A stretch of 36,154 nucleotides of DNA from NCBI GenBank assembly GCA_029244605.1, contig JAQWQL010000016.1, positions 1-36,154 of the forward strand. Direction: 5' to 3'. Positions within the stretch are counted from its first letter, which is position 1, and each line of letters begins with the position of its first letter. The notes below the pieces were generated by a model. That model did not search any database, had not been told where the DNA came from, and was given only the letters and a program-made list of their open reading frames with translations. Positions 4,513 to 21,681 of the stretch are shown here, piece after piece. The translations under genes were made by a program, and so were the position numbers. Source of the stretch: Acidimicrobiales bacterium. Its GTDB lineage: Bacteria; Actinomycetota; Acidimicrobiia; Acidimicrobiales; UBA8592.

Positions 4513-5361
4513 TTAATCTGGAACGCTGATGCAACGGTTCTCTAGTGTTCCGATACCTTCAATGGACGTGCGGACTACATCCCCATCAATGAGGAAAACA
4601 CCGTTACGAAAACCGACGCCTTCTGGAGTGCCAGTAAAGATCAAATCCCCAGTGGATAAGGTCACATGCCGTGAGATAAAAGAAATGAGTTCCGGGATAC
4701 TAAAAATCATGCTTGAAGTCCGGTCATGCTGGCGCAGTTCTTCATTTACCCAGGTTCGTAGCTCTAGATCAGCCGGGTCGGTGAAACTGTCAGTTGAAAC
4801 GAGGACGGGCCCAGTGGGGCCGAACGAATCCATAGATTTTCCTAGAGTAAATTGTGCTGGGGTGCTCATGAATTGGGCACCACGGTCAGAAAAGTCCTCC
4901 CCGACTGTGAGTCCGACCACATGTTCCCAAGCTCGGTCTTCACGGATATCTTTCCCGCCGGAACCGATAACGACCACGAGCTCACCTTCGTAGTCGCATT
5001 CGCCGCTGCGCATCTGCACGTCCGACGTAGGTCCAGTTATACAGGACGGGAGTTTCGCGAAGACCATGGGAACTTCGGGAGTATCCATGGCGGCTTCATC
5101 AACATGGGTCTGATAGTTCAGCCCTATTCCGAACGAATTCGCTGGTCGAGGTACCGGAGCGCCAAGCACAACATCGTCAACCATTCCCGACGCAGCAAAG
5201 CTTTCCAAATCCGAAGAAAGCGTATGGAGGGTTTCGGGTTCTGCGAGGGCTTCCATCGGGTCCGCACTCACCGCACCATCAGAGATCACTTCAAGATCGA
5301 AGAAACTTCCATCGCTGATAAGGGCGCTCTTCCCGTTGACATTTGCGAATGTAAAAGTCAT
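4513..5361 (-). CDS. Fumarylacetoacetate hydrolase (FAH) family protein
   Basis: A 282-residue cytosolic enzyme of the FAH superfamily, whose members cleave or decarboxylate beta-keto-type acids using Mg2+ or Ca2+, usually late in aromatic ring-cleavage pathways. Visible motifs: 'GIGLNYQTHVDEA' (about 80-92), substrate loop 'FAKLPSCITGP', metal ligands in 'DYEGELVVVIG', 'GEDFSDRGAQ', 'GKSMDSFGPTGP' and 'GDLIFTGTPEGVG' near 250. The start is ATG 5361, with AAAGGAA 8 bases upstream; a GTG at 5379 would overlap this site. The upstream neighbour on the same strand is a secreted hydrolase 50 bases away. A perfect hairpin lies between them, so the two may be unequally expressed. The substrate is not predictable. 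Confidence 0.9.
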   Translation of the reverse strand: MTFTFANVNGKSALISDGSFFDLEVISDGAVSADPMEALAEPETLHTLSSDLESFAASGMVDDVVLGAPVPRPANSFGIGLNYQTHVDEAAMDTPEVPMVFAKLPSCITGPTSDVQMRSGECDYEGELVVVIGSGGKDIREDRAWEHVVGLTVGEDFSDRGAQFMSTPAQFTLGKSMDSFGPTGPVLVSTDSFTDPADLELRTWVNEELRQHDRTSSMIFSIPELISFISRHVTLSTGDLIFTGTPEGVGFRNGVFLIDGDVVRTSIEGIGTLENRCISVPD

Positions 5362-5381
5362 CAGAAGGTTCCTTTCCACAT

Positions 5382-5399
5382 AGCGAATAAAGATTCGCT
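5382..5399 (-). other. Intercistronic hairpin
   Basis: AGCGAAT-AAAG-ATTCGCT is a perfect 7-bp stem with a 4-nt loop between the lipoprotein hydrolase (ends 5412) and the FAH gene on the minus strand. There is no T-run, so it probably sets mRNA stability or is a leaky terminator rather than a full stop. Confidence 0.5.
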
Positions 5400-5411
5400 T
5401 AGATACTTGCC

Positions 5412-7007
5412 TTATTCGAGCCCTGCTTTTTCTGCCCGCCGAGTTTCTTCCTCAACCATAATCTCTGCATCTTCTGGAAGGAGCCACCCATTGGCGACAC
5501 TCTCATCGGCTGCTGCTGTTAACGCTTCGATGTAGGTAGCTAACGACGAGTACATGCCTTGCAGCGTCCCTAAATCAATGTCGAACGTTTGACCAAAGAG
5601 AAAACAGAACCCTTCCGATGAGCCCGGATCTCCAATGAGAATCCGAAGCGGCGCTTCCACCGGTGGTGTCCGTACACCACCGATTGCTATTCCCATTTCA
5701 TCACGGACAATGACGGGCTCTTCTCCCATTGATACTTCGATGCGTAGCGCCGCCGGTGGTATAACTCCATTTTGGACCCACGCTACGAAATGATGCAATG
5801 CTGCTTGTAGCGTTTCATGTTGGGGGCCATCATTAATCAACCCATCACAGCCCAAAGCTGCACCTATACTCGCCTGCCGTGGGAATCCACGAGGGTAGGT
5901 AATTGAATAGGTATCTGCGTGTGCAGCCCCAGCGACTTCCCATGTCCGAATATTACCTGCGTCATCCTGCCGGGCATTCACGTACTGAAGCACTGTTAAA
6001 TCAGTTTCAGTTTCATAAATTAACACCGGAACATTTACATCGGTGCGGATCAGTACGTTCTCCAGAGAATCATCAACCGATGGGTTTGGCGCTCCATCAC
6101 CTCGCCCATGGATCAGGAACCCATCGAAAATATCGACGAGCGGATGTACTGCGTTGACGTAGGCAGTAAGAAATCCCGCTGATTGTGATTGACCTGCAGC
6201 AACAACGCTTGTTGCCGGAAGTCCGTACTCGGGGGATGCAAGAATCGCCAAGCCTGCAACTGTTGCTTGCGAGAAAATATCGAACGAATACGCGTCACCC
6301 GGGTGAATAAGATCTCCATAACGGTCAGGGTCCCGTACCGGCAATCCGCGAGTGTCGATGAGCCCTTGAGGTATCCGCCCGGTATCTCTTCCCATCACTC
6401 CGACATATTGCGCGGAGACCCCGACATATGCGTGTCCAGACCTGCCGATTTCTTCCGACAGGTACGACCAGTCGATACTGTTGTCTACTCCAGCGGTGAC
6501 ATTAAACCACTCAACGACCACGACGCCACTGAATTGTTCCGCCGGAGGATGCCTGAGAATCATCCGTGTCTTGTATGCAGCTGCACTGTTTTCAGTCACC
6601 GTCCAAAAACCATCACTGGCTACTGGGCCCTCGGGAACGTATGAAACAGCTTCACCAGCGACGAGGTATTCTTCTTCACTGAACCCTTCAGGTAAGGCAG
6701 AGTCACCCAGTGGCTGGAGGATACCTTCGCCCAACCCATCAGCGGGAACCCATTCGTTTGGAAACCGGAACGCCACTTCGTATTTTTCGTCGTGGCCTGC
6801 CATGGGTTCTTCTTCATTCATTTCCTGCGGTTCACTTTCTTCCACTGCTGCGGGTTCTGGCTCAGGAGAAGCTTCTTCCTTTTCGGACTCAGTTGTAGGC
6901 ACACTATTTATATTGCTTTCTTCATTGTTCGTAGAACTGCACGCACTAAAAACTGTGATAATGCACAGTGCATACGCAGGCAGGAACGCTGCCCAATTTT
7001 TCCCCAT
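5412..7007 (-). CDS. Exported lipoprotein alpha/beta hydrolase (Abhydrolase_10-like)
   Basis: The protein has 531 residues. A lipoprotein signal peptide (MGKNWAAF...VFSAC) ends in a lipobox with Cys at about residue 25. A Glu/Pro-rich linker of about 60 residues follows, then a large catalytic domain of the 'alpha/beta hydrolase domain' family. The nucleophile elbow is 'GQSQSAGF' and a candidate catalytic His is in 'GAAHAD'; 'VVVEWFNVTAG' is typical of the family's front half. It should act outside the membrane on esters, but no substrate is known for close relatives. I start at ATG 7007 because the signal peptide begins there and TATCCT lies 6 nt upstream. The upstream TTG at 7058 would add 17 residues ahead of the signal. 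It diverges from the SnoaL gene at 7098. Confidence 0.85.
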   Translation of the reverse strand: MGKNWAAFLPAYALCIITVFSACSSTNNEESNINSVPTTESEKEEASPEPEPAAVEESEPQEMNEEEPMAGHDEKYEVAFRFPNEWVPADGLGEGILQPLGDSALPEGFSEEEYLVAGEAVSYVPEGPVASDGFWTVTENSAAAYKTRMILRHPPAEQFSGVVVVEWFNVTAGVDNSIDWSYLSEEIGRSGHAYVGVSAQYVGVMGRDTGRIPQGLIDTRGLPVRDPDRYGDLIHPGDAYSFDIFSQATVAGLAILASPEYGLPATSVVAAGQSQSAGFLTAYVNAVHPLVDIFDGFLIHGRGDGAPNPSVDDSLENVLIRTDVNVPVLIYETETDLTVLQYVNARQDDAGNIRTWEVAGAAHADTYSITYPRGFPRQASIGAALGCDGLINDGPQHETLQAALHHFVAWVQNGVIPPAALRIEVSMGEEPVIVRDEMGIAIGGVRTPPVEAPLRILIGDPGSSEGFCFLFGQTFDIDLGTLQGMYSSLATYIEALTAAADESVANGWLLPEDAEIMVEEETRRAEKAGLE

Positions 7008-7013
7008 GTCCTT

Positions 7014-7019
7014 AGGATA
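7014..7019 (-). promoter_or_regulatory. -10 element of a probable leaderless mRNA
   Basis: TATCCT on the minus strand lies 6 nt before the ATG at 7007. An AAGGA is present but too close to the ATG to serve as a normal ribosome site. The spacing matches the other leaderless candidates in this window. Confidence 0.4.
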
Positions 7020-7097
7020 ACCACAATTAAAATTTCCGTGTTTGCTTTTGAACTGCAATTATAGAAATACCACTTGAAGAAGACCTTTGGAGGAACG

Positions 7098-7598
7098 GTG
7101 CCCTACACCCCAGAACAGTTATCAGATCGCGAAGATATACGTGATGCAGCTATGCGTTATTGCCGCGGCGTTGACCGCCTCGACCCTGAATGCATGAAAT
7201 CAGCCTATTGGCCTGACGCAACAGACGACCATGGAAATTTCAGCGGAAATGCTCATGAATTCGTCGACTACTGTATGAAAGCGCACCTCCGGTGGAAATG
7301 GACCATGCATTCCATCTATAACCATCAAATCGAACTCGACGATGATGGCGTCCATGCACGCGGAGAAATTTACAACATCTCGCACCTATGTAGGAAAGAC
7401 ACTGGAGAGGTTGACACATGGTACGGGCGGTATCTGGATCGTTATGAGAAGCGTGATGGAGAATGGAAAATCCTAGAACGTGTATGCGTTCACCATGGCA
7501 CGCAAGTAATAGATGCTTCACCTATGCCGATGCAAACGAGTCGATACCGTGGCGGGTCATTTGACCGGCCGGCAAATGGTCGTCCAGTAGGTCCTTAA
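7098..7598 (+). CDS. SnoaL-like/NTF2-fold protein
   Basis: This 166-residue protein has the cone-shaped NTF2-like fold: 'LSDREDIRDAAMRYCRGVDRLDPECM' type first helices, 'YWPDATDDHG' and the C-terminal 'GRYLDRYEKRDGEWKILERVC' strands. SnoaL_4 members act as small isomerases, hydratases or ring-hydroxylating dioxygenase beta-like proteins. The start is GTG 7098, because GGAGG at 7089-7093 sits 4 bases before it; the upstream TTG at 7074 would put the ribosome site inside the gene. A related protein lies at 16169 (shared 'RG(V/I)DRLDE/P' motif). It precedes the enoyl-CoA hydratase by 49 bases. Confidence 0.85.
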   Translation: MPYTPEQLSDREDIRDAAMRYCRGVDRLDPECMKSAYWPDATDDHGNFSGNAHEFVDYCMKAHLRWKWTMHSIYNHQIELDDDGVHARGEIYNISHLCRKDTGEVDTWYGRYLDRYEKRDGEWKILERVCVHHGTQVIDASPMPMQTSRYRGGSFDRPANGRPVGP

Positions 7599-7647
7599 GT
7601 TCGCAGTCCACTAGGTGTATGGGCATTCTCTGTGACAACATGGTCCA

Positions 7648-8412
7648 ATGGTATTTGAAACACTCACAGTCGTCATAGAAGAGGACATTGGGAAATTAAC
7701 CCTCAACCAGCCAGATAAGTTAAATCCATTGGGAACGAACACGCTTCAGGAAATCATCGACGCGACAGCATGGTTCGATGAACAAAAAGTCCCTGTCGTG
7801 ATCATCAGCAGTCGAGGACGTGCGTTTTCTGCAGGGTTTGATCTGCGTGAATTCACTAATCCCAATCAAGGTGGGAAAAATGGTGCAGCACTTGGGAAAC
7901 AAATGGCTGACGCTATAGAGAACATGAACGCAGTAGCCATCGCAGCCGTGCATGGCCATTGCATCGGTGGGGGAGTTGTCCTCGTCGGTGCATGTGACCT
8001 ACGGATCGCGGCAACGAATACAAGTTTCTCTATTCCAGAAATCGACCTTGGCATTCCTCTGGCTTGGGGAGGGATCCCTCGCCTCGTTCGTGAGATCGGC
8101 CCCGCCATGACGAGAGAACTTGTTATGACCTGTAGGCCGTTCACTGCTGAGGAAGCGAAATCTATAGGGTTCATAAATCGGATCGTTGACATAGCTGAAC
8201 TGGAGCAAGAAGCACTCGACATGGCTGCATCCATCAGCCAGCGACCCCAATCAGTCATCCAAACAACGAAACGACAAGTGCAAAGCGCAGCCGAGGACCT
8301 CGCATCAACCCAAAACGAATGGATTGGCGAAATATTGATCGATGCTGCCGGCCAGAATAAAGAAGCGAGACTATCAGCGCAAAAATACCTTGAAGGAAGG
8401 AAGAGCAGCTAA
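7648..8412 (+). CDS. Enoyl-CoA hydratase/isomerase (crotonase family)
   Basis: At 254 residues it is normal crotonase length. The oxyanion-hole segments are 'GRAFSAGFDL' (about 57-65) and 'HGHCIGGGV' (about 102-110), followed by 'DLRIA' and 'PEIDLGIPLAWGG'. Of the two glutamates that hydrate enoyl-CoA in rat crotonase, the second is kept (E131, in 'PEIDLG') but the first position is Val (V111). A simple hydratase activity is therefore uncertain, and isomerase or other CoA-thioester chemistry is possible. No Shine-Dalgarno sequence precedes ATG 7648. It is followed 62 bases later by the transporter operon, so co-transcription is possible. Acts in the cytosol on acyl-CoA. Confidence 0.88.
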   Translation: MVFETLTVVIEEDIGKLTLNQPDKLNPLGTNTLQEIIDATAWFDEQKVPVVIISSRGRAFSAGFDLREFTNPNQGGKNGAALGKQMADAIENMNAVAIAAVHGHCIGGGVVLVGACDLRIAATNTSFSIPEIDLGIPLAWGGIPRLVREIGPAMTRELVMTCRPFTAEEAKSIGFINRIVDIAELEQEALDMAASISQRPQSVIQTTKRQVQSAAEDLASTQNEWIGEILIDAAGQNKEARLSAQKYLEGRKSS

Positions 8413-8474
8413 GAAAAGATTGGCGCACCCACACACATGTGAAGCGAAATGTCGTCAGAAGAGAAGGGGGGAGA

Positions 8475-10553
8475 ATGAAAAACGAACAAGCCATAAGCGC
8501 CCATACGACAGATACTTTTTCGTGGATGATTCCCCCAGCGATTCTCCTCATTATTCAACAAATTTTTTGGAGAACTCCGTATGGCGCTGTCCTACAGGGA
8601 ATAATTCTTGGTCTGCTCACAAGCCTCGTCGCTATCGGCATCGTCCTTATCTACCGCTCAAACCGGGTTCTAAACTTCGCTCAGGCAGAAGTCGGTCTTT
8701 TGCCAACTGTTCTTAGCGTAATGCTCATCGTGGAATCCGGATTCCCGTATCTCGCGGCTTTCGCTATAGGCCTTGTTGGGGCAGCCCTTCTCGGTGTCAG
8801 TTCGGAATTTCTCGTCGTTCGAAGATTCTCAAGAAGCCCTCGACTGGTCTTGACGGTCGCAACCCTAGGCCTAGCCCAGACACTAGTTTTTTGGGCGATC
8901 CTTATGCCAGACTGGTGGGGAAGTGGAGTGACCTCACAACGCATCGACTCACCACTAAATATCCAATTCGATTTTGACAAATTCCGCTTCAACGATAACC
9001 ACATCATCGTTATCGTCGTTGTCCCGCTTATCCTTCTTGCAGTAGGCGCAATACTCCACCGCACCCGCCTGGGTACCGGAATCAGAGCGGTAGCAGAAGA
9101 CTTCGACCGATCAGGCATGCTTGGTATACCCGTATACCGGTTACAAAGCTTCGTGTGGGGGCTTGCCGCCGTGCTGGCCTTCCTAGCTCTATTTCTACGC
9201 TCCAGCATCTTCGGTCTTCCAGTAGGCGGTCAACTCGGTGTTCTATTTTTTCTCCGTGCATTGACTGCTGCGGTAGTGGGAAAACTAACTGACCTAAAAA
9301 CAGTCTTATTGACATCCGTGGTCCTTGGGATTCTCCAACAAGGAATCATATGGAACACAGACAGCCCAATGCGCGGGAATGCTCTCATGGCAGCGGTATG
9401 CGCTGCGGTTATCCTTCTTGCTCTCGTCGTCCGACCTCAGATATATTCCCGATTCGCGAACCTCAGTGAAGCTATCTCCATGGGGGAAACACGGCCTATC
9501 CCTCCTGAGCTTAGAAACAGAATAGAGATTCAAACGACAAAGTTCTTTCTGGGGGTGATCAGTCTCGTTCTCCTTGCAGCTATCCCATACTGGTTCGGGA
9601 CAGTTAATACTCTCCGATTCTCTGCCTTATTCATCTTCACCATCCTCTTATTGTCGCTCGTAGTACTTACTGGATGGGCAGGACAGATATCCCTTGGCCA
9701 AATGGCGTTCTTCGCTGTTGGGTCAGTAACCGCCGGTAAAATGATCATCGAGTGGAATATGGATCTTATCCCAGCGATCCTCCTATCGGGAATTGTCGGT
9801 ATGGGCCTCGCACTCGTTGTTGGCCTGCCGGCGCTTCGGATTCGAGGACTGTATTTGGCGGTGACGACCTTAGCTTTCGAACTCGCAATGATCAGCTACT
9901 TCCTAAATCGAAGATTCTTTGACTGGGTCCCATCATCCTCAGATCGTGTATTGCGGTTACCCATCTTCGGCCAAATTGAGTATTCCTCAAGCAGAGGAGT
10001 GTACTTTGTTAGCGTCGTAGCTCTCATTATCGCATTTGCAGCGATCAGAGGCTTACGAAACAGCCGAACAGGTAGGGTCCTGCTCGCCCTACGCGACAAT
10101 GAACAAGGTGTATCCGCATACGGAGTAAGTGTTATGAGGGCAAAATTGATGGCATTTGGAATCGCTGGATTTCTTGCCGGTTGCAGCGGAGCTCTCTTTG
10201 TCGTCCATCAACAATCTTTCTCAGGTACTGGGCAAGGCTTATCCATCAGAATTTTCATCTCAGCGATAATAGGAGGAATAGGGTCAGCGTTGGGCGCTTT
10301 CCTCGGCTCGTTATTCCTTTGGGGAACCATATGGTGGCTCCGCGGCAGCTGGTTTTTTCTCGCAACAGGATTCGGAATTCTCGTCGTGTTATTGATCGCC
10401 CCCGGTGGTTTAAGTTCTTTCCTCTTCCGTTTCCGAGATTGGCTTCTAACGCTGTTCGCCAACAGGAAACAAATCAAAGTCCCGAGCCTAATCGCCGATG
10501 ACCAAATACCTGATGCATCCACACCAACAGTAGGGGCGGACAATGAAAGCTAG
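8475..10553 (+). CDS. Fused LivH-LivM permease of a branched-chain-amino-acid-type ABC transporter
   Basis: Both membrane subunits of a HAAT-family importer are in one chain of 692 residues. Residues about 15-320 are LivH-like (segments 'LVAIGIVLIYRSNRVLNFAQAE' and 'RAVAEDFDRSGMLGI'). After a polar linker ('ETRPIPPELRNRIEIQ'), about 350-650 are LivM-like ('LTGWAGQISLGQMAFFAVG', 'RIRGLYLAVTTLAFELAM', 'RVLLALRDNEQGVSAYGV'). Each half carries its own EAA-like coupling loop. The start is ATG 8475, with a GGGGGGAG ribosome site just upstream; an in-frame ATG at 8439 lacks one. The gene overlaps the next by 11 bases, so the two are translationally coupled. Such permeases import amino acids, amides, urea or aromatic/short organic acids; the cargo is unknown. 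Confidence 0.92.
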   Translation: MKNEQAISAHTTDTFSWMIPPAILLIIQQIFWRTPYGAVLQGIILGLLTSLVAIGIVLIYRSNRVLNFAQAEVGLLPTVLSVMLIVESGFPYLAAFAIGLVGAALLGVSSEFLVVRRFSRSPRLVLTVATLGLAQTLVFWAILMPDWWGSGVTSQRIDSPLNIQFDFDKFRFNDNHIIVIVVVPLILLAVGAILHRTRLGTGIRAVAEDFDRSGMLGIPVYRLQSFVWGLAAVLAFLALFLRSSIFGLPVGGQLGVLFFLRALTAAVVGKLTDLKTVLLTSVVLGILQQGIIWNTDSPMRGNALMAAVCAAVILLALVVRPQIYSRFANLSEAISMGETRPIPPELRNRIEIQTTKFFLGVISLVLLAAIPYWFGTVNTLRFSALFIFTILLLSLVVLTGWAGQISLGQMAFFAVGSVTAGKMIIEWNMDLIPAILLSGIVGMGLALVVGLPALRIRGLYLAVTTLAFELAMISYFLNRRFFDWVPSSSDRVLRLPIFGQIEYSSSRGVYFVSVVALIIAFAAIRGLRNSRTGRVLLALRDNEQGVSAYGVSVMRAKLMAFGIAGFLAGCSGALFVVHQQSFSGTGQGLSIRIFISAIIGGIGSALGAFLGSLFLWGTIWWLRGSWFFLATGFGILVVLLIAPGGLSSFLFRFRDWLLTLFANRKQIKVPSLIADDQIPDASTPTVGADNES

Positions 10554-13413
10554 ATTTGAACGTGTCGTTGGTTCAGGCCCGGTGTATCCGATGCTTATCT
10601 TATTCGGCCTTAACGCGGTCGATGAGCTAGACCGAACCGCTTTCGCAATACTCGCCCCAGAAATCCGAGATGAATTCGGACTAGGTTTTCAGGGGTTGTT
10701 GACTCTCGCTGGTGTTGTCATCGCTTTTGCTCTCGCCCTACAAGTCCCTATCGCAGGGTTAGCGGACAAGATGAATAGGGTACACCTCGCAATAATTGGC
10801 GCCTTAGTGTGGGCAATTTTTTCTTTCATGACTGGCCTAGCCACGTCGATAATCTTTCTCGGATTCATGCGCTCAGGTTCGGCTATAGGGAAAGGCGTTA
10901 TTGACCCGACACATAACTCGTTATTAGCTGACTGGTACGAACCTAGCCAGCGACCCGCCGCTTACTCCTTTCATCGAGCTGGAAACTCTGTAGGAATTAT
11001 CTTTGGAGCGCTCTTTGCCGGACTTTTAGGATATTACTTTAGCTGGCGAGTCCCATTCTTTATCTTTGCTATACCTACCGTTGTTCTGGCTTTCTTAGCC
11101 TTACGGTTGAAAGAACCAGTTCGTGGCCGATTCGAACGAGAAGCCGCAGGCGCCGATGAAGAAGCAGCAATGCTCGCCGAAGAACCACCATCGATGACCG
11201 AAGCTTGGCGTTTATGTTGGAAAGTAGAAACACTTCGCCGAATTTTTATGGCTATGCCCTTCCTAGCCATATCAATTGTAGGTTTCGGAGTTCTTGCTTC
11301 GCTATTTTACGAAGATGTTTTTGGCCTTGATGAACGCGCGCGCGGATTCATCGCAGCCGGTGTAGAACCAGCACAACTCCTCGGCCTGATGGTCGGCGCC
11401 GGCCTAGGGGTAAAGCTCGTGTCTCGCGACCCGTCACTCATTTTACGCCTTCTTGCAGTTGCAGCATTCGTAGGTTCGGTTTTCGTCGTCGGCTTCGCAT
11501 TGTCACCAACGGCATGGATGGCCGTAGGTTTCAGCGCCCTCATTTATTTCTCTTTCGCTATTCTTGGACCAGGCCTTATCGCTGCCCTCTCCCTAGCTAT
11601 TCCGCCTCGCGCCCGAGCAATGGGCTTCAGCATGGGGGCACTTTGGGCTCTCCCGGGGCTCTTCGCTCTCCCACTTGTAGGTTGGGTGGGCGACAAATGG
11701 GGAATCCGAGCAGGAATGCTAATCATGACTCCGATTCTTCTAGTCGGGATGTTCATCATTAGTTCTGCTGCATCAGGTATCACCAGAGATATCGAGCAAG
11801 TTCGGTCTTCCGCTAGAGCACGCAGTGAAGCTGCACTCGCACGCAAAAAAGGAGAAGCAATGCTTCTCCTCACGAGAGATGTGCAAGTCAGTTATGACAA
11901 AGTACAGGTTCTTTTCGGTATAGATATCGACATTGGGGAGGGAGAAATCGTCGCCCTCCTCGGTACTAACGGGGCTGGAAAATCAACACTTCTGAAAGCT
12001 ATCTCAGGAGTAACCGAAGCTGAACGAGGAGCTATTGTTCTTGACGGACGCGATATCACCCACGCTCCCCCTAATGAAATAGCTGCTTTAGGAATAGCGC
12101 AACTCCCAGGTGGACACGCAATCTTTCCAAGCCTCACCGTTAAGGAAAACATTGAGGCTTCTCAGTGGCTTTCAAATACAGAAAAGAAATCAGACCTAAG
12201 CGAAGTAGAAGAATCTTTGCAGCTCTTCCCAGAAATTATGGAACGGTGGAACGACCCCGCAGCGAACCTCTCGGGAGGGCAACAGCAAATGCTCGGGTTA
12301 GCAATGGCTCTCCATAGCTCACCAAAGGTATTGATGATAGATGAACTCTCCCTCGGGTTAGCTCCTGCTGTTGTAGAGAGGATCCTTCCAGTCGTGAAAC
12401 AAATAGCGGCAAACGGAACAGCCGTCATTATTGTCGAGCAATCAGTCAACCTTGCCTTAACGATCGCCGAACGTGCCTACTTCATGGAAAAAGGGACAAT
12501 CCGATTTAGCGGTTCAACAAAAGATCTCCTAGATCGACCAGACTTACTTCGTTCCGTCTTCCTCAGCAAAATAGAAGCGACACCTATTCGGACACCGGAG
12601 ATACCAGAATCAACCGGGGAGCTCGCCCTCCAAGCAGATGAACTCTCACGACGGTTCGGAGGTATACAGGCAGTAGCTTCGATTTCGTTCGCTGTCCAAG
12701 AGCGAGAGATTATCGGAATTATGGGGCCAAATGGAGCTGGGAAAACAACATTATTTGATCTCTTAAGCGGATTCGTCCCAGTTGACAGCGGAACAGTGCA
12801 CCTCGCTAATCGTGATATAACAGGTTCCAGCCCTTCGGAACGAGCCCGCTACGGCCTCGGCCGGTCCTTTCAAAATGCGAAGCTCTTCCCTTCGCTTACA
12901 GTTGCAGAAACTATCGCTGTCGCCCTTGAACGTTTCACGACAGCCCGCGACCCTGTCTCCGCGGCCCTCTACCTTCCTCGATCATACGAAAGTGAGAAAC
13001 GCGTCAACAGTCAGGTATCAGAACTTATTGAAGTGATGGGATTAAGTGCATACGAGAACAAATTCATTGGGGAACTCTCCACCGGAACCCGAAGAATGGT
13101 AGATCTCGCATGCGTTATCGCTCATCGTCCACTCGTTGTTCTCCTTGATGAACCTTCTAGCGGTATAGCACAAAAAGAAGCAGAAGCACTTATCCCTGTC
13201 CTCCGAAGAATCCGAGAAGAAATGGGATCTTCACTCGTGGTCATAGAACACGATATTGGCCTCCTCTCAGAGATATCAGACCGATTCATAGCTTTAGACC
13301 AAGGATCGGTGATAGCTCGGGGCGCGCCCGATGAAGTCCTCAATAACTCCCTCGTCATCTCTTCATACCTCGGGACCTCAAAGGCAACAATTCAGCGAAG
13401 TGGAGAGATCTAG
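10543..13413 (+). CDS. Three-domain fusion: MFS carrier + LivF-like ATPase + LivG-like ATPase
   Basis: One uninterrupted 956-residue frame. Residues about 10-410 are a 12-helix MFS carrier ('GLADKMNRVHLAIIGALVW', 'SLLADWYEPSQR', 'SWRVPFFIF'), closest in feel to spinster/sugar-phosphate-type carriers. Residues about 440-670 are a LivF-like ATPase: Walker A 474-482 (GTNGAGKST), signature LSGGQ 576-580, Walker B ending at E601. Residues about 695-945 are a LivG-like ATPase: Walker A 728-736 (GPNGAGKTT), divergent signature LSTGT 845-849, Walker B LLDE 867-870. The ATPases should energise the LivHM fusion upstream. The role of the MFS part is unknown. Inside the gene GGAG at 11851-11854 precedes an in-frame ATG at 11860 (residue 440), exactly where the first ATPase begins, so a shorter ATPase-only product is plausible. 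Confidence 0.92.
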   Translation: MKARFERVVGSGPVYPMLILFGLNAVDELDRTAFAILAPEIRDEFGLGFQGLLTLAGVVIAFALALQVPIAGLADKMNRVHLAIIGALVWAIFSFMTGLATSIIFLGFMRSGSAIGKGVIDPTHNSLLADWYEPSQRPAAYSFHRAGNSVGIIFGALFAGLLGYYFSWRVPFFIFAIPTVVLAFLALRLKEPVRGRFEREAAGADEEAAMLAEEPPSMTEAWRLCWKVETLRRIFMAMPFLAISIVGFGVLASLFYEDVFGLDERARGFIAAGVEPAQLLGLMVGAGLGVKLVSRDPSLILRLLAVAAFVGSVFVVGFALSPTAWMAVGFSALIYFSFAILGPGLIAALSLAIPPRARAMGFSMGALWALPGLFALPLVGWVGDKWGIRAGMLIMTPILLVGMFIISSAASGITRDIEQVRSSARARSEAALARKKGEAMLLLTRDVQVSYDKVQVLFGIDIDIGEGEIVALLGTNGAGKSTLLKAISGVTEAERGAIVLDGRDITHAPPNEIAALGIAQLPGGHAIFPSLTVKENIEASQWLSNTEKKSDLSEVEESLQLFPEIMERWNDPAANLSGGQQQMLGLAMALHSSPKVLMIDELSLGLAPAVVERILPVVKQIAANGTAVIIVEQSVNLALTIAERAYFMEKGTIRFSGSTKDLLDRPDLLRSVFLSKIEATPIRTPEIPESTGELALQADELSRRFGGIQAVASISFAVQEREIIGIMGPNGAGKTTLFDLLSGFVPVDSGTVHLANRDITGSSPSERARYGLGRSFQNAKLFPSLTVAETIAVALERFTTARDPVSAALYLPRSYESEKRVNSQVSELIEVMGLSAYENKFIGELSTGTRRMVDLACVIAHRPLVVLLDEPSSGIAQKEAEALIPVLRRIREEMGSSLVVIEHDIGLLSEISDRFIALDQGSVIARGAPDEVLNNSLVISSYLGTSKATIQRSGEI
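11851..11862 (+). promoter_or_regulatory. Internal ribosome site and ATG at the MFS/ATPase boundary
   Basis: AAAAAAGGAG followed after 5 bases (AAGCA) by ATG, in frame, at residue 440 of the fusion. It could let the two ATPase domains be made without the MFS carrier, giving the usual two-ATPase-per-permease stoichiometry. It might also be the fossil start codon of a once separate livF gene. Confidence 0.5.
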
Positions 13414-13470
13414 TTTGCTTGGAACAAAATTCGTACTAACGTCCACTGGAAGAGCTATCGGGGGGTAAGC

Positions 13471-15342
13471 ATGGAATCTGCACAAGGTGAAGTAGAAACT
13501 TCGGGGGTATCAGCGCTAAAGAAATGGGGCCCTCTAGGCCTTCTTGTCGTAGCCGCTGTTGTAGTGATTATTGTTGTCGTATCCGGCGGTGGAGGTAGCG
13601 ACGATACTGCGAACGAAACCGGTTCGACAGCATCGTCCGAATCTTCCCAAGCCGAATCCACAGAAGAGAGTTCAGCCGATGCGCAAGAGGAAACCTCAGA
13701 AGCTACTGAAGTTGAAGAAACTCAAACAGCTGAAGAGGAAACTCCCGTTTCGGAAGACTGTCCTACTGCTGGTGATGCAAGAGATGACTTGCTGGATGGA
13801 GTGATGTTTTACGAAGAGGCAGTGACTCGTTGCATCGCTGATGGCATCGAGTGGGGAGAGCGCTGCGACGAAGAAACTGGCCTGCTCAAACTACCGACAT
13901 CAAACCCCCCGGCATGTTTCGCTCCTTTTGAAGGAGACAACGGAGGAGCAACAGCACGTGGGGTAACGGAAGATTCCATCAATATTGTCTACTGGCGCTG
14001 GCAGGAGAATGACTTCATCCTCAAGTACATTACCGGCCCAATAGCGAACGATGACACCAACGCTGACGCCGAAGCAAGCTTGCGCGGCATGTTAGAATAC
14101 TATGAAACGTATTACGAGACTTACGGTAGGTCCGTCAATCTTATCTTCTATGAAGGTACAGGGCTTATAAGCGACGAAGTCTCAGCACGAGCTGACGCTG
14201 TAAAGATCGCCGAAGAGTACGACCCCTTTATGGTGTGGAATGGTCCGACTTTGACTAATGCATTCGAAGATGAACTTGTTTCGCGCGGTATAGCTTGCCT
14301 TAGTTGCGGACCATCACAGGACATAGAGTATTACCGTGAAAATGATCCACTTGCGTGGGCTTTTGGTATGAGCGCTGTCCAAGCGAACCTAATAGCTTCA
14401 GAATATGTTGGGAAGCAACTAGCAGGAAGGAACGCCGTCTATGCCGGCGATCTCGACTACCAAAATCAGCCCCGAGTCTTTGGGAGGCTGTGGATCGAGA
14501 GCGGAGAAGCATCTGTCCAAAACGAAGGAGATTTTGAAGATAATCTCGCAGAATATGGAGTTGAAGTAGTTGAATCCGTTGCCTTTACGCTTGATCCCGC
14601 CAGCTTGCAAGAACAAGCATCGTCGGCAATTGCTAAGTTCAAGGCAGCTGGAGTAACAACCGTAATGTTCTCTGGTGACCCGATATCGCCTCGAGATTTC
14701 ACTCGTGAAGCAACAGCACAAGGGTATTACCCTGAATGGGTACATATTGGTAGCGTTCTTGCCGATACAAATATTTTTGCCCGAACGTATGATCAAGATC
14801 AATGGGCAAATGCCTTTGGCATCACCACTCTTTCAGCAAGGGTCGACCCAGCTATAAGTGGAGCACCCTTCCGCTACAAGTGGTTCTTCGGAGAAGCTGC
14901 CCCAGCAGATGACTCTCTGGGAGTCATCGATCCGTGGCCAGCTACGTTCTACCCGATCATCCAGGGTATTGGACCTGACTTGACATATGAGAATTGGAAA
15001 ACAGCCCTAGATAGTGCAGACCCAACCCGCCAAGGATTAACATCCGGCTCATTCTCCTGGGGTGAAACTGGAAGATGGCCAGCGGAATTGGAATATGACT
15101 TCTTCGGAGGCGATGACGTGACCGTCTTCTGGTGGGATGCAACCAAGGAAGGTTTTGATGAAGCTGACACTCTCGGACCTGGTATGTATTTCTTCGCAGA
15201 TGGTGGTCAACGTTACCTATTCGGCGAGATTCCTGAGGAGGACATTGTTCTCTTCGATCGGGAAACGGCTTCCGATATCTATATGGAATGGCCTGAAGGT
15301 GAAGCACCCAATGAGTATGATCCTCTACCATCTGGTGGATGA
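13471..15342 (+). CDS. Membrane-anchored LivJ-type substrate-binding protein
   Basis: A 623-residue extracytoplasmic binding protein for the HAAT transporter. The N-terminus has one hydrophobic helix (about residues 20-38, 'LGLLVVAAVVVIIVVV') preceded by KK and followed by GGGGS, with no lipobox Cys. It is therefore probably a membrane-tethered form rather than a lipoprotein. About 50 residues of Ser/Glu/Thr linker follow, then a Cys-containing segment (DCPTAGD...CDEETG...PPACFAPF) that probably makes disulfides. The periplasmic-binding domain starts at about residue 160 ('GVTEDSINIVYW'). It is longer than E. coli LivJ (about 370). The ribosome site is GGGGGG, 5 bases before ATG. Its stop overlaps the next start (ATGA). 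Confidence 0.9.
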   Translation: MESAQGEVETSGVSALKKWGPLGLLVVAAVVVIIVVVSGGGGSDDTANETGSTASSESSQAESTEESSADAQEETSEATEVEETQTAEEETPVSEDCPTAGDARDDLLDGVMFYEEAVTRCIADGIEWGERCDEETGLLKLPTSNPPACFAPFEGDNGGATARGVTEDSINIVYWRWQENDFILKYITGPIANDDTNADAEASLRGMLEYYETYYETYGRSVNLIFYEGTGLISDEVSARADAVKIAEEYDPFMVWNGPTLTNAFEDELVSRGIACLSCGPSQDIEYYRENDPLAWAFGMSAVQANLIASEYVGKQLAGRNAVYAGDLDYQNQPRVFGRLWIESGEASVQNEGDFEDNLAEYGVEVVESVAFTLDPASLQEQASSAIAKFKAAGVTTVMFSGDPISPRDFTREATAQGYYPEWVHIGSVLADTNIFARTYDQDQWANAFGITTLSARVDPAISGAPFRYKWFFGEAAPADDSLGVIDPWPATFYPIIQGIGPDLTYENWKTALDSADPTRQGLTSGSFSWGETGRWPAELEYDFFGGDDVTVFWWDATKEGFDEADTLGPGMYFFADGGQRYLFGEIPEEDIVLFDRETASDIYMEWPEGEAPNEYDPLPSGG

Positions 15343-16172
15343 CCGACTTTAGCCTTCATCCCTGGAATGAAACATTCGAATGGAGTGATGCTTCAGCGCG
15401 CACGGGCTATTTGAGTCAGGAACAGGTCAACAAATATAATGAAGAGGGTTTCTTGCTTTTGGAAGAGGCTCTAGACATGGAGCAACTTCGAGTTGTCATC
15501 GAGTCGTTGGATCAATTAGCGCAAGAAACTGACACTTTTCTCCAAACCCTTGAAGATGAACGGCTTTCCATAGCAGAATCTGGAGCGATCCTCTTTGGGA
15601 TTCACCCTTGTCTCAGGTCGGAGTCGGTAAAGAAATTTATTTCCCAGCAGCCCTTTGTTGATATCTGTTATGACCTTATTGGCCCAAATGTCCGACTGTA
15701 CTGGGATCAACTCGTGTACAAACAGGTAGAGAAACCTCGTAGATTCCCATGGCATCAAGATAACGGGTATGGGTTTGTCGAACCTCAACAGTACCTCACA
15801 TGCTGGATTCCTCTAGTGGATGTCCATATCGAAAATGGATGTCCTTGGATAGTTCCTAAAGTCCATCGAAAGGGAACGCTTTCCCATGAGTATGTAGACC
15901 CTTTAGGGTATGAATGTTTCGCCGATCATCCAGATGCTGTCCCAGTCGAAGCTAAGGCAGGAAGTATCGTCATCTTCTCATCGCTGACTCCCCATAAAAC
16001 CGGGCCAAATATCAGCGGAGAAACGAGAAAAGCGTATATTGTCCAATACGCGCCAGACCATGCAAAGTTATTGCATGGGGAACCCCAAGCAGGGCCGCCA
16101 GAAAACAAGGTCCCAGCAGACGAATCTGAGCGCCAATTTCCGATTTTAGTAGATGGTGTTATAGCGATCTAG
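15339..16172 (+). CDS. Phytanoyl-CoA dioxygenase (PhyH) family protein
   Basis: A 277-residue Fe(II)/2-oxoglutarate oxygenase. The iron triad is H139-x-D141 ('WHQDNGY') and H219 ('TPHKTGPN'), with R230 placed to bind 2-oxoglutarate ('RKAYIVQYAP'). PhyH relatives hydroxylate acyl-CoAs, phosphonates, ectoine precursors and many secondary metabolites. Its ATG overlaps the stop of the binding-protein gene (ATGA), so it is translated with the transporter. The natural inference is that it hydroxylates the imported compound or its first product. The 3' end overlaps the convergent gene at 16169 by 4 bases, leaving no room for a terminator. Confidence 0.9.
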   Translation: MTDFSLHPWNETFEWSDASARTGYLSQEQVNKYNEEGFLLLEEALDMEQLRVVIESLDQLAQETDTFLQTLEDERLSIAESGAILFGIHPCLRSESVKKFISQQPFVDICYDLIGPNVRLYWDQLVYKQVEKPRRFPWHQDNGYGFVEPQQYLTCWIPLVDVHIENGCPWIVPKVHRKGTLSHEYVDPLGYECFADHPDAVPVEAKAGSIVIFSSLTPHKTGPNISGETRKAYIVQYAPDHAKLLHGEPQAGPPENKVPADESERQFPILVDGVIAI

Positions 16173-16663
16173 CCAACTGTGTATATTGGATCTGTCCTGT
16201 CGCGGGCGCTCATGGGCCAACTTCCTGCCATTTTCGCTTCGATATTCTCTACTTTTGACCAGTCTTTCCGAAGCGTACGCTGGTGAATTCTCCACTCGCC
16301 ATCTCGTAACGAATATTCATCGATGTACCTCCCATTAAAAGTATGAAGAATATTTACATCACCTGAAGCTTCTACATGATATGCAAGAACGTAAGACTCA
16401 ACGACAGCTAAATCACCATCGATTTCTATTCGAATATTTGAAACACGATGCTGAGTGGCAACAAAGCGCTTACGGAGGCTTGGGATAGCATGAGAGACAA
16501 AATCCTCTATAGGCATAGGTTCTGCTCCGTAATCAACCATTATCGCCTGCGGATGAAATGCAGAAAGAAGCGACGTCTCATCAAGGCGGTCGATTCCCCG
16601 CGTATATGCCAAAAGCCTATCGAGGATTTCCTCGCGTGCGCTTAGACCCTCATGGTCCGCCAT
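16169..16663 (-). CDS. SnoaL-like/NTF2-fold protein
   Basis: 164 residues with the SnoaL_4 pattern: 'EEILDRLLAYTRGIDRLDETSL', 'FHPQAIMVDYG', and the paired strands 'HTFNGRYIDEYSLRDGEWRIHQRTLRKDW'. It resembles the protein at 7098-7598 and is probably a distant paralogue. It lies 7 bases downstream of the molybdenum hydroxylase gene on the same strand, so the two are very likely one transcript. Catalysis (isomerase, hydratase, dehydratase) cannot be told from sequence; the fold often serves small hydrophobic ligands. Confidence 0.85.
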   Translation of the reverse strand: MADHEGLSAREEILDRLLAYTRGIDRLDETSLLSAFHPQAIMVDYGAEPMPIEDFVSHAIPSLRKRFVATQHRVSNIRIEIDGDLAVVESYVLAYHVEASGDVNILHTFNGRYIDEYSLRDGEWRIHQRTLRKDWSKVENIEAKMAGSWPMSARDRTDPIYTVG

Positions 16664-16670
16664 GTCTGAT

Positions 16671-18968
16671 CTATCCCTCTGCGGATTGTATGGCTAGCCA
16701 CACTCGTTCGGGAGTTAATGGCATATCGATATGTTTCACGCCGAGATGCGAAACTGCATTAATTACCGCATTATGAATCGATGGAGTTGAACCTATGGTT
16801 CCTGACTCTCCGATGCCTTTCGCACCAAGAGGGTTTCGAGGAGTAGGTGTTTCTGTGTTGAAGGTCTCAAAAGATGGGAGTTCGGCAGAAGACGGGATTG
16901 CGTAATCCATCAGATTTCCAGTAAGGGGGTTCCCCTCCTCATCGTAGAACACTCCCTCGTATAAGGCTTGGGCTGCGCCTTGAGCGATGCCTCCATGCTG
17001 CTGGCCTGTCACAATTAATGGGTTTAGGATTTTTCCGCAGTCATCTACAGCAATATGGCGGAGAAGTTCAACGCCGCCAGTTTCCACATCAACTTCGACT
17101 ACGGCAACGTGAGCACCGAATGGGAAGGTGGCATCGGTCCCATCAAAATCTAGTTCATGGGTTAACCCAGGTTCCATTCCCTCAGGCCTCTTCTCATCAT
17201 CATTCGAGGCTTTTGCTAAATCTGCCCAACTCACGACATTCGCAGGTACTCCTGCCACATGGAGCCCGCCTCCTCCGATAGTGATATCATCTGCGCTTGC
17301 TTCAAGAAGGTGAGCAGCGAGCGTTTTCGCTTTTTCAAGCACCGTTTCACTGGCAATATGGATAGCTGACCCTGCTGTTTGTAGTGACCGTGAGCCCATC
17401 GTTCCAGCTCCACGCGGGACTTGTTCAGTATCGGACTGGATAAGGCGTACTTTTTCCATGTCGATTCCAAGAATTTCTGAAATGATCATAGAGAAAGCAG
17501 TAAGGTGGCCTTGCCCATGTGCGCTCGTTCCAACAGTGGCGCTCGCAGTTCCATCTTCGTGAATTTCTACGGCTCCGTATTCAACGTGAAGCCCGGTGGG
17601 GGCAGTGCACTCTACGTACGTAGCCACACCAATGCCTAGCTGCTTGCTACTACCATCACCGCGGCGTTCTTGCTGCTGAGCGAGGAGGTCTTCATAGCCT
17701 GATTCTTCTAAAGCCCTATCCAACGCAAGAGCATATTCACCCGAGTCGTAATTCATTCCGCCTAAGGTGGTTAGAGGAAACGCATCTGCTTCTAGTAGAT
17801 TTTTCCTGCGGATTTCAACTGGGTCTATATTGAGTTCATCTGCTGCTACATCCATGAGTCGTTCAAGTAATTGAGTCGCTTCAGGACGACCCGCACCACG
17901 ATAGGCGACAGTGGTAGTGGTATTCGTCGCGACGGACAGGGCATGGAAACGTAGTTTTGGAATTTCGTAGACTCCTTGGATCATAAGTTGTGTGTAGAAA
18001 GCAAGGAAACCTCCTATGCCTGGGTATGCGCCAGCATCAAATATTGCCTGAGCGTCGAAGCTAGTAATTTTTCCTTCATTATCAAAGCCCATTTTTCCTG
18101 TAAGTACGCTAGCTCTACCATGACCGTTAGCGACCATATTTTCGCTTCGAAGCTCCGTCCATTTGAGAGGCCTCTGAAGCTGCATGGCAAGGATGGAAGT
18201 AGCAATGTATTCAGCGGGCATAGCGGCTTTTGGCCCAAACCCACCTCCAACAGCTGGAGCGATAATGTGCAGATTTTCTTCTTCTAACCCAAGCAGGGGA
18301 GCAAGCCCCTCCCGAAAAGCATGAGGGCTCTGGGTTGGCATCCAAGTAGTTAATTTCCCATCCTCGGGAATAGCAACAATCCCATTAGCTTCTATTGGAA
18401 CACCAGCGATGCGTTGACTAACCATTTTGACCTCTGCAATATGATCTGACCCTTCTGTTGGATCATCGCCTTCATGCTCTATTCCCGTTTCAAAACAAAC
18501 ATTGGACCCATGCTCTTCGAATAAGATCGGTGCATTTTCTGCTAGCGCCTCTTCAGGGTCAGTGATAACAGGTAACGGTTCAAAATCCATCCAGATTTCC
18601 GCTGCTGCATCAGCAGCGATGCTTGCAGTCTCAGCAACAACCACCGCAATAATATCGCCAACGAAACGAACTTTGTCAGTGGCGAGAAGCGGTCGGGAAA
18701 AAACTGGGGGGTACATAGCAAAACCCAGTTGAGGAGGCATATCAATATCGTTTGCCGTCCAGACGCCTATCACTCCATCAATCTCTTTCGCGCTGGATGT
18801 CTCGATAGAGGTTATGGTTGCGTGGGCGACAGAGGAACGAACAAAATACACGTATCCAAGACCTGAAACCTAAATGTCATCAAAGTACTTTTCCGCTCCA
18901 ATCAAAAGATCTGGATCTTCCCTACGGAGCACAGCATTACCGAGGAGAGAACCTTGGACGTCAGACAT
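16671..18968 (-). pseudogene. CoxL-like (form II) molybdenum hydroxylase large subunit interrupted by an in-frame TAG
   Basis: Read through, the frame gives about 764 residues, full length for the xanthine dehydrogenase/CO dehydrogenase large-subunit family. Residues 1-32 (MSDVQGSLLG...EKYFDDI) are the normal N-terminus with an AAGGGGA ribosome site. Codon 33 (18872-18870) is TAG; the same frame then continues as VSGLGYVYFVRSSVAHA, the expected next strand, where relatives usually have Lys or another residue. No frame change is involved. The molybdopterin domain is otherwise intact: 'GGGFGPKA', 'AYRGAGR' at about 355-361 (the form II signature, not the AYRCSFR of true CO dehydrogenase), and 'KGIGESG' with the catalytic Glu. 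A GTG at 18851 could restart translation but would lose a conserved strand. The partner FAD and 2Fe-2S subunits are not in this window. Confidence 0.85.
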
Positions 18969-19085
18969 ATTTTCCCCTTTCATAGTCTTCCTACAGAGTC
19001 TTACATTTTTCTTGAGAATGTTCGAGTCAAAGTCAATCTTATTTTCTCTAGAAATAAAGAAACTCTCCAAAATAGCTGTTTGAGA

Positions 19086-19108
19086 AAATCAGTTTCAGAA
19101 ACTGGTTT
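19086..19108. promoter_or_regulatory. Operator candidate: CAGTTTC-A-GAAACTG dyad
   Basis: CAGTTTC (19090-19096) and GAAACTG (19098-19104) are perfect inverted repeats around one base, and the symmetry extends to 19087-19107 with a single T-G wobble. It lies 49 bases before the Rieske oxygenase start, in the divergent region shared with the molybdenum hydroxylase. A TetR-, GntR- or MarR-type regulator is a natural guess. None is encoded nearby. Confidence 0.5.
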
Positions 19109-19115
19109 CTTCAAT

Positions 19116-19127
19116 TACTTGCAAGTA
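19116..19127. promoter_or_regulatory. Operator candidate: 12-bp palindrome overlapping a possible -10
   Basis: TACTTGCAAGTA is a perfect 12-bp palindrome. It runs into TATCGT (19126-19131), a plausible -10 that would start transcription about 19 bases before the Rieske ATG. A protein bound here would block RNA polymerase. The -35 region is not clear. Confidence 0.45.
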
Positions 19128-19156
19128 TCGTAGCTAGATGGTTGTCAGGAGGAAAT

Positions 19157-20515
19157 ATGGCCGTATTAAGAGATGTAGAAAGTAGATCCCCAGGGATAAC
19201 GTACCAGGAACTTTTAGACTCTGATACGCATCCAGTTCCTGAGGTTCTTCGGCTGGAATCAACACAAAGCCTCGGACCTGACGAATTTCCAGTCAGCCGA
19301 TACACCACGCGAGAATGGCACGAAGCAGAGAAAGAAAAATTATGGTCTCGGGTATGGCAATATACTTGCCGAGCAGATGAGATACCTGAAGTCGGCGACC
19401 ACTATGTCTATGAGATCGTGGGCCAGAGTTACATCGTTATGCGCAGTAGTGAAGAAGAAATAAAAGCCTATCCCAATGCTTGCCTGCACCGAGGTCGGCG
19501 ATTGAAGGATTATGACGGTCGATGTTCAGAAATCCGCTGCCCATTCCATGGCTTCGCATGGGAGCTTGATGGAGAACTCAAAGATGTTCCTGCCAAATGG
19601 GATTTCCCTCACGTCGAAGCAGAGGAATTCAAACTTCCCGAAGTTCAGGTAGGGGTCTGGGCAGGGTTTATTTTCATAAACCCTGATCCCGATGCAGAAT
19701 CTCTCGAAGACTTTATGGGAGATCTAGATGATCATTTCCAAGTCTGGGACCTCGAACGACGCTACAAACAAGCGCACGTAGCCAAAGTCATTCACGCCAA
19801 TTGGAAAATAGCGCAGGAGGCTTTTTGTGAAGCATTGCACGTAAATGCTACGCATCCTCAGATCATGGCATATCTCGGCGATACCAATTCTCAGGTAGAT
19901 GTTTGGGACAACTTCGCTCGGGTTATTAGCCCCGGCGGAACACCTAGCCCACTACTTGAATATGATGTATCCGAAGATGATCAACTCCGAGCGATGCTGG
20001 ACACTAGCTATGACAAAGAATCGCCTGTCGAAATCCCTGAAGGGACGACGATGCGAGCTCACGCTGCCGCTATGTCCCGAGATCGATGGAGGCCAATGGC
20101 AGGTGACGGGGTTGACTCCATGTCTGACGCCGAGATGATGGACAGCATCGACTACACCTTGTTCCCTAATTTCCATCCTTGGGGCGCGTTCAACCGTATC
20201 GTGTACCGATTCCGCCCCAATGGTGATGACCATAGAAGTTCGATCATGGAATGTATTTTCCTTGCCCCCTATCCTGAAGGAAATAAGCCAGATCCCGCCC
20301 CGGTCCATTGGTTAAGCGATGATGAGAACTTCAGCGATGCCCCGGAACTCGATACTTTGGGGAAAGTCTTTGATCAAGATGTTTTCAACATGGGCAAAGT
20401 CCAGCTAGGCCTCGAGACAACGCAGAAAACCGGTGTTGTGCTTAGTAATTATCAGGAATCGAAGGTCAGATGGATGCACCAAAAGCTCAGCGAATGGTGC
20501 GGGGAGGACCAGTAA
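19157..20515 (+). CDS. Rieske non-haem iron oxygenase, alpha subunit
   Basis: A 452-residue ring-hydroxylating oxygenase large subunit. The Rieske 2Fe-2S site is C109-x-H111 ('CLHRGR') and C128-x2-H131 ('CPFHGF'). The mononuclear iron site is H228 and H233 ('EALHVNATH') with the third ligand, an Asp, in 'FDQDVFN' near residue 400. I start at ATG 19157 because AGGAGG lies 4 bases upstream; a TTG at 19142 would include the ribosome site. It heads a four-gene run with a 70-residue protein, an amidohydrolase and a luciferase-like oxidoreductase. No reductase, ferredoxin or canonical beta subunit is adjacent, so electrons must come from elsewhere or from an unusual partner. The substrate, aromatic or otherwise, is not predictable. 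Confidence 0.92.
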   Translation: MAVLRDVESRSPGITYQELLDSDTHPVPEVLRLESTQSLGPDEFPVSRYTTREWHEAEKEKLWSRVWQYTCRADEIPEVGDHYVYEIVGQSYIVMRSSEEEIKAYPNACLHRGRRLKDYDGRCSEIRCPFHGFAWELDGELKDVPAKWDFPHVEAEEFKLPEVQVGVWAGFIFINPDPDAESLEDFMGDLDDHFQVWDLERRYKQAHVAKVIHANWKIAQEAFCEALHVNATHPQIMAYLGDTNSQVDVWDNFARVISPGGTPSPLLEYDVSEDDQLRAMLDTSYDKESPVEIPEGTTMRAHAAAMSRDRWRPMAGDGVDSMSDAEMMDSIDYTLFPNFHPWGAFNRIVYRFRPNGDDHRSSIMECIFLAPYPEGNKPDPAPVHWLSDDENFSDAPELDTLGKVFDQDVFNMGKVQLGLETTQKTGVVLSNYQESKVRWMHQKLSEWCGEDQ

Positions 20516-20727
20516 TGTCGCATGGTTTGATTCACCCGTTCTCAAAAGCTCTGTATGTAAAAACAGATGAAGGGAACATTCAAGTAACAGATGGCGACCT
20601 CCAGGGGCTCTTCCGAATTGATGGCTCTTGGATAGAAGGCGATTTACGAGAATGTGATCCTCAATTGTGTAACTGGGTTGGGGGGCCACAGATAGAGAAC
20701 CACCGGGTTGGGAAAGTAGAGAAATGA
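20515..20727 (+). CDS. Small protein translationally coupled to the Rieske oxygenase
   Basis: 70 residues starting MSHGLIHPFSKALY, with alternating strand-like segments ('VKTDEGNIQVTD', 'GLFRIDGSWIEGD') and two Cys residues near 'CDPQLCNW'. I do not recognise a characterised family. The A of its ATG is the last base of the upstream TAA (TAATG), and GGGGAGG precedes it, so it should be made with the oxygenase. It could be an accessory or regulatory subunit of that enzyme. It is much too short for the usual beta subunit. The stop codon is followed at once by a strong hairpin. Confidence 0.75.
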   Translation: MSHGLIHPFSKALYVKTDEGNIQVTDGDLQGLFRIDGSWIEGDLRECDPQLCNWVGGPQIENHRVGKVEK

Positions 20728-20754
20728 TCTATCCGGTTACCCACCGGACAGATC
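20726..20754 (+). other. Intercistronic hairpin
   Basis: GATC-TA-TCCGGT-TACCC-ACCGGA-CA-GATC: a 6-bp perfect inner stem and a 4-bp outer stem separated by a symmetric two-base internal loop. It is followed by TACTTT, too short for a clear T-run. It sits between the 70-residue gene and the amidohydrolase, 17 bases before the latter's GTG. It could attenuate or stabilise the transcript. Confidence 0.5.
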
Positions 20755-20771
20755 TACTTTAAGAGGCACGC

Positions 20772-21674: not shown

Positions 21675-21681
21675 GGTTCCC

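Follow-up and report, generated by a model that had tools for sequence, protein, structure and literature searches.

The window analysed here, a stretch of 36,154 nucleotides from an Acidimicrobiales bacterium, encodes a protein in which a complete MFS carrier is joined to the two ATPases, LivF and LivG, of an ABC importer of the HAAT type. Its gene lies in an operon with a fused LivH-LivM (LivHM) permease and a binding protein (SBP). This fusion architecture is real, old, and conserved. Literature searches for MFS-ABC fusions returned nothing relevant, and the architecture is undescribed as far as the searchable literature goes. Judging from the sequences, there is about an even chance that these parts form a composite transporter, in which a working carrier and an importer are paired 1:1 and have identical or linked substrates. 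LivHM, the fused ATPases, and the SBP would then constitute an ordinary HAAT-type importer, predicted to carry out ATP-dependent uptake, and the Spinster-like MFS half would be a working secondary carrier, probably proton coupled. The features of the region are as follows.

7648 to 8412, plus strand: crotonase/enoyl-CoA hydratase, an upstream neighbour conserved in the genus
8439 to 10553, plus strand: LivH-LivM fused permease, 704 residues, two BPD_transp_2 units (Pfam)
10543 to 13413, plus strand: MFS-LivF-LivG fusion protein, 956 residues (ORF, Pfam, NCBIfam, AlphaFold2)
10564 to 11802, plus strand: putative Spinster-like MFS carrier half, residues 8 to 420, 12 TM helices (profiles, AlphaFold2)
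11770 to 11847, plus strand: predicted helical joint from MFS to LivF, residues 410 to 435 (AlphaFold2, profile gaps)
11845 to 12567, plus strand: LivF-type ATPase, residues 435 to 675 (Walker A, 474 to 482; signature, 576; Walker B, 596 to 601)
12628 to 13371, plus strand: LivG-type ATPase, residues 696 to 943 (Walker A, 728; signature LSTG, 845; Walker B, 865; H-loop, 898)
13471 to 15342, plus strand: SBP, with an N-terminal helix resembling a membrane anchor, a low-confidence linker, and a LivJ-type (type I) fold
15339 to 16172, plus strand: PhyH-type oxygenase overlapping the SBP stop, a neighbour in the genus and at locus L099
16169 to 22659, no strand given: SnoaL-like protein, molybdenum hydroxylase large subunit, Rieske oxygenase, amidohydrolase, and luciferase-like monooxygenase

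The fusion frame opens with ATG and has no internal stops, in agreement with the unbroken 956-codon frame of the initial annotation. In Pfam, MFS_1 was matched at residues 21 to 363 (133.9 bits; cut-off, 33.4), ABC_tran was matched in two stretches (199.3 bits), and the C-terminal end corresponded to BCA_ABC_TP_C. The best NCBIfam matches of the two ATPases were UrtE (LivF type) at residues 444 to 662 and UrtD/LivG at residues 695 to 945. An AlphaFold2 model built from 55 window and locus sequences (mean pLDDT of 85) placed twelve TM helices within residues 14 to 407, followed by a helix (410 to 435) and two ABC ATPase folds; the low-confidence parts were the joint between LivF and LivG (670 to 691), a short loop (547 to 549), and the C-terminal end. 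The TM helices form two six-helix halves with motif A between TM2 and TM3, and the model recovered the complete 12-helix carrier proposed for about residues 10 to 410. The proposed ATPases were recovered as well: LivF and LivG both carry Walker A and B, the signature, and the H/Q-loop, and these motifs are intact and almost invariant across 49 MFS-F-G homologues. Fold searches with the whole fusion were dominated by ABC ATPase matches, and the MFS half was placed by sequence profiles instead. Primary transport (driven by ATP) and secondary transport (driven by gradients) are textbook opposites, MFS proteins being normally driven by ion gradients, and the initial judgement that a chain with one carrier and ABC ATPases is mechanistically odd still stands.

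In 51 of 55 homologues, the MFS and LivF profiles were separated by 14 to 16 residues; the gap between LivF and LivG ranged from 17 to 86 residues. The MFS-LivF joint (residues 410 to 435) is modelled as one continuous helix. The near-constant first gap, set against the variable second one, suggests a fixed geometry rather than a loose tether.

A fusion seen once could have come from an assembly join or a lost stop codon, and both this and an absence from all other genomes had been named as grounds for dismissing it. Neither was found. The same unbroken frame was read in assemblies made independently of one another, among them a single-cell genome (L064), a complete genome (CP011489.1, L075), and numerous MAGs; with nothing found in its favour, an assembly or annotation artefact is vanishingly improbable. 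Within the genus, the full-length fusion was present in 12 of 18 genomes, and pieces ended by contig ends were present in 2 more. The MFS-LivF junction was contained in one open frame, as MFS-F or MFS-F-G, in at least 54 of the 148 sampled genomes of the order. In the phylum sample, the fusion also occurred in the complete genome IMCC26256, which belongs to another order of the class, and in six genomes from other classes. In Embleya sp. NBC_00888 (Streptomycetaceae), a complete replicon encodes MFS-F followed by LivHM-G. One Chloroflexota MAG (L087) holds three fusion copies, which were absent from the 200 other Chloroflexota genomes, and spread into this phylum is not claimed from one genome among 201. 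A record titled "Euryarchaeota archaeon" (L066, PBUX01000009.1) contains a copy with 86% identity to the protein of the window and is probably mislabelled or from a mixed bin. Several MFS-F-G modules with SBPs occur on one 97-kb contig (G032 contig 104, loci L096 and L097), from a genome in which the family is expanded. Apparent LivHM-MFS-F-G mega-fusions, open frames of 1,700 or more residues in GC-rich genomes, were rejected, the LivHM unit being encoded in a different frame.

The LivHM permease of the window matches BPD_transp_2 twice (171.4 bits), and the last 11 bases of its gene are shared with the beginning of the fusion gene, suggesting that the two genes are translationally coupled. 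A LivH-LivM partner was found within 3 kb at all 49 MFS-F-G loci and an SBP at 45 of them, which makes the fused ATPases the evident motor of LivHM. The commonest layout among the loci inspected was SBP / LivH-LivM / MFS-F-G; in the second, MFS-F adjoins LivH-LivM-G, and in the third, MFS-F is accompanied by a separate LivG. The MFS was joined to LivF, never to LivG, in each MFS-containing layout inspected. The window's genome (G000) has both of the first two layouts. Contig 105 corresponds to the window, and contig 100 carries a second HAAT system (L009, 2261 to 7293, minus strand) with an MFS-LivF protein of 735 residues followed by a LivH-LivM-LivG protein of 940 residues. The two systems are 38% identical over MFS-F and have the same parts with different cut points. 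Many genomes of the genus, as well as Embleya sp. NBC_00888, share the contig 100 type of layout.

Relatives that lack the MFS encode LivHM together with F-G, or all four parts as a single chain, as at L082 (7838 to 11608) and L142 (13361 to 17095), where H-M-F-G form one protein of about 1,250 residues. The existence of LivHM/LivFG systems without the carrier indicates that the MFS is dispensable for import as such. Conversely, a tree of 76 rows placed stand-alone MFS genes at several points inside the fused clade (L141/L149; L142/L144/L145; L143; L146; L148), requiring at least 7 changes of the fused/unfused label on well-supported branches. The stand-alone genes each end in a stop codon of their own and retain most of the signature residues, and their nesting suggests loss of the fusion rather than repeated gain. 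The stand-alone MFS of L085 was not counted as an unfused copy, since the tree places it in a distant family. At L142 (8962 to 17095), a stand-alone MFS of the fused clade adjoins an SBP and the single-chain LivHMFG without MFS, forming an unfused counterpart of the system. Unfused genes at several tree positions might suggest an accident of gene order, in which two adjacent transport genes fused and stayed together with no functional link. This would have to be reconciled with conservation across the whole order and beyond, with the near-constant joint length, and with two operon layouts that both have the MFS on LivF, and it is highly improbable.

The solved structure nearest to the MFS half is HnSpns (6e8j), matched at an E-value of 5.7e-17 by the single sequence and of 2.9e-34 by the family profile; Spns1, DgoT, EfpA, and SPNS2 come next. 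Residue conservation was counted in the 49 MFS-F-G sequences that remained after dereplication at 92% identity. The motif A residues D75 and R79 were invariant in these 49 and in 6 further sequences. Other charges of the MFS half were also largely kept: D27 in 43 of the 49, E28 in 41, D30 in 45, R31 in 38, R110 in 46, H124 in 44, D130 in 48, and H144 in 42. The carrier has the TM1 Asp-Arg pair (D30, R31) and the TM4 Arg (R110) of Spinster proteins. In the alignment, D30, R31, R110, and D130 are equivalent to D41, R42, R122, and D142 of HnSpns, which together with the TM4 proton-switch glutamate E129 make up its proton and charge-relay network (PMC9440201). This glutamate (E129 in HnSpns, E126 in MsSpns) has no counterpart here. 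Its position is taken by K117 (10891 to 10893), a charge inversion, and by K or R in 36 of the 49 sequences. Consequently, the proton mechanism of Spns does not simply transfer, and the MFS half is termed Spinster-like and not filed as a Spinster member. A search for conserved proton and substrate residues, which the initial annotation had proposed, thus found most of the charge network kept and the TM4 Glu replaced. The extracellular salt bridge between a TM2 Asp and a TM7 Arg was not found at the HnSpns-aligned positions, where the alignment is locally weak. The MFS half appears, from its sequence, to be a Spinster-like carrier with an altered charge arrangement, and a basic side of the cavity would suit an anionic substrate. 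Relative to the closest relative (dS of about 1), dN was 0.034 for the MFS, 0.043 for F, and 0.048 for G; in further close pairs, the MFS had the lowest dN (L064-L066, L072) or one of similar order to the ATPases. The MFS half is as constrained as the ATPases and no fossil.

The evolution of the carrier was compared with that of its partners by rank correlation of the distance matrices of 45 loci. The MFS correlated best with the SBP (0.81), followed by H and M (0.67 each), F (0.58), and G (0.44). The partial MFS-SBP correlation given F, G, H, and M was 0.61, and 0.33 in 21 dereplicated rows; none of 500 permutations reached the observed partial values, full or dereplicated. The divergence of the MFS therefore tracks the ligand-determining SBP more closely than its own ATPases, suggesting a shared or linked substrate. 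This covariation could be partly inflated if the MFS and the SBP both evolve fast, or by gene conversion among the ATPases.

These results bear on what the MFS half does. Ligand sensing would likewise produce covariation with the SBP, and other MFS proteins have turned into receptors. The MFS fold may then be a nontransporting accessory, a sensing or scaffolding subunit with a role in regulating or positioning the importer, in keeping with the near-constant joint to the ATPase and the basic residue in place of the proton-switch glutamate. This is quite unlikely given that the MFS half keeps motif A and most residues of the Spns-type network and that stand-alone relatives are found away from any ABC genes. 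The initial annotation had also considered that the MFS half merely anchors the ATPases, which would otherwise be soluble, to the membrane. MFS-less LivHMFG systems exist as a class, as this would allow, but the low dN, the conserved cavity charges, the stand-alone relatives, and the MFS-SBP covariation all speak against it. Such an anchor would be superfluous too, since LivHM holds LivF and LivG in HAAT systems, and we consider it very unlikely. Among the three readings first offered, mere anchoring is thus disfavoured, and a carrier paired with an importer, as relay or exchange, fits best.

The remaining reading gives the ATPases a part in the carrier's own cycle. Besides serving LivHM, they would act on the MFS half, and ATP hydrolysis would drive or gate the carrier. 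The predicted continuous helix of fixed length is the main reason why such coupling stays in play, and the MFS-F plus LivHM-G layout likewise keeps the MFS on LivF. However, stand-alone MFS relatives persist without ATPases, so the carrier can probably work alone; the MFS covaries more with the SBP than with F and G; and the ATPases already have LivHM to serve. Hybrid energisation of this kind is unlikely, if far from negligible. A true hybrid, in which the Spinster-like MFS cycle is mechanically coupled through the helix to the ATPases of the neighbouring importer and uses both ATP and an ion gradient, is a tentative possibility that we hold to be improbable from the sequences at hand. It would take the form of an ATP-gated carrier or of ABC import obligatorily coupled to MFS exchange.

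In the preferred reading, that of a paired carrier and importer, the MFS would handle the importer's substrate or a close metabolite. The helix into LivF would hold the carrier 1:1 in a fixed position beside the importer, probably as a single complex, and the carrier's candidate directions are low-affinity uptake, relief efflux, and product exchange. Its cargo is probably an organic compound that is anionic, aromatic, or hydrophobic in some other way. In the genus, a conserved catabolic cluster surrounds the transporter (4513 to 22659 in the window), including the genes at 16169 to 22659 that are conserved beside the module. It encodes a crotonase, a PhyH-type oxygenase, a molybdenum hydroxylase, a Rieske oxygenase, an amidohydrolase, a luciferase-like monooxygenase, two SnoaL-like proteins, an alpha/beta hydrolase, and an FAA hydrolase, which fits the degradation of an organic compound of aromatic, heterocyclic, or terpenoid-like nature. 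No common pathway was found among the neighbours outside the genus, where the genes are mixed, suggesting that the paralogues serve different substrates. The SBP fell under the cut-off of the sequence profile Peripla_BP_6, and by fold it matched LivJ and its relatives (E-value of about 1e-13), including binders of p-coumarate, 4-hydroxybenzoate, fatty acid, and branched-chain amino acids. These matches are compatible with an aromatic or other organic substrate, without specificity.

The system shares with HAAT importers (LivFGHMK, UrtABCDE, and aromatic-acid systems; TC 3.A.1.4) the LivH/LivM permeases, LivF and LivG with full motifs, a LivJ-fold binding protein, and the grouping of the parts in one operon. 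It differs from them in the pairwise fusion of LivH with LivM and of LivF with LivG, and in the 12-helix MFS at the N terminus of LivF. With the Spinster carrier HnSpns (6e8j; TC 2.A.1.49), it shares the equivalents of D41, R42, R122, and D142 and motif A; unlike HnSpns, it has K/R for E129, additional conserved residues (D27, E28, H124, and H144), and covalently attached ATPases. In the ArsB-ArsA arsenite pump, the ATPase ArsA drives or gates the secondary carrier ArsB. This pump likewise shows that a secondary carrier can pair with an ATPase, although its carrier and ATPase folds are unrelated to those described here and ArsAB is not fused to a complete ABC importer. Other MFS fusions include the sensor-kinase-MFS family TC 2.A.1.34 (PMC3924187), in which an MFS carrier also bears an extra functional domain, the partner being a kinase and not a transport ATPase.

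An annotation of such a protein as either "MFS transporter" or "ABC ATPase" would be half wrong. The complete parts of a primary and a secondary transporter share one chain, with a conserved joint, across an order of environmental bacteria, and the Embleya copy provides a second, sequence-complete example. If the two are merely paired for one substrate, the fusion would be a standing solution to the combination of high-affinity transport with a second route. Coupling between the two engines would represent a new way of energising or regulating transport.
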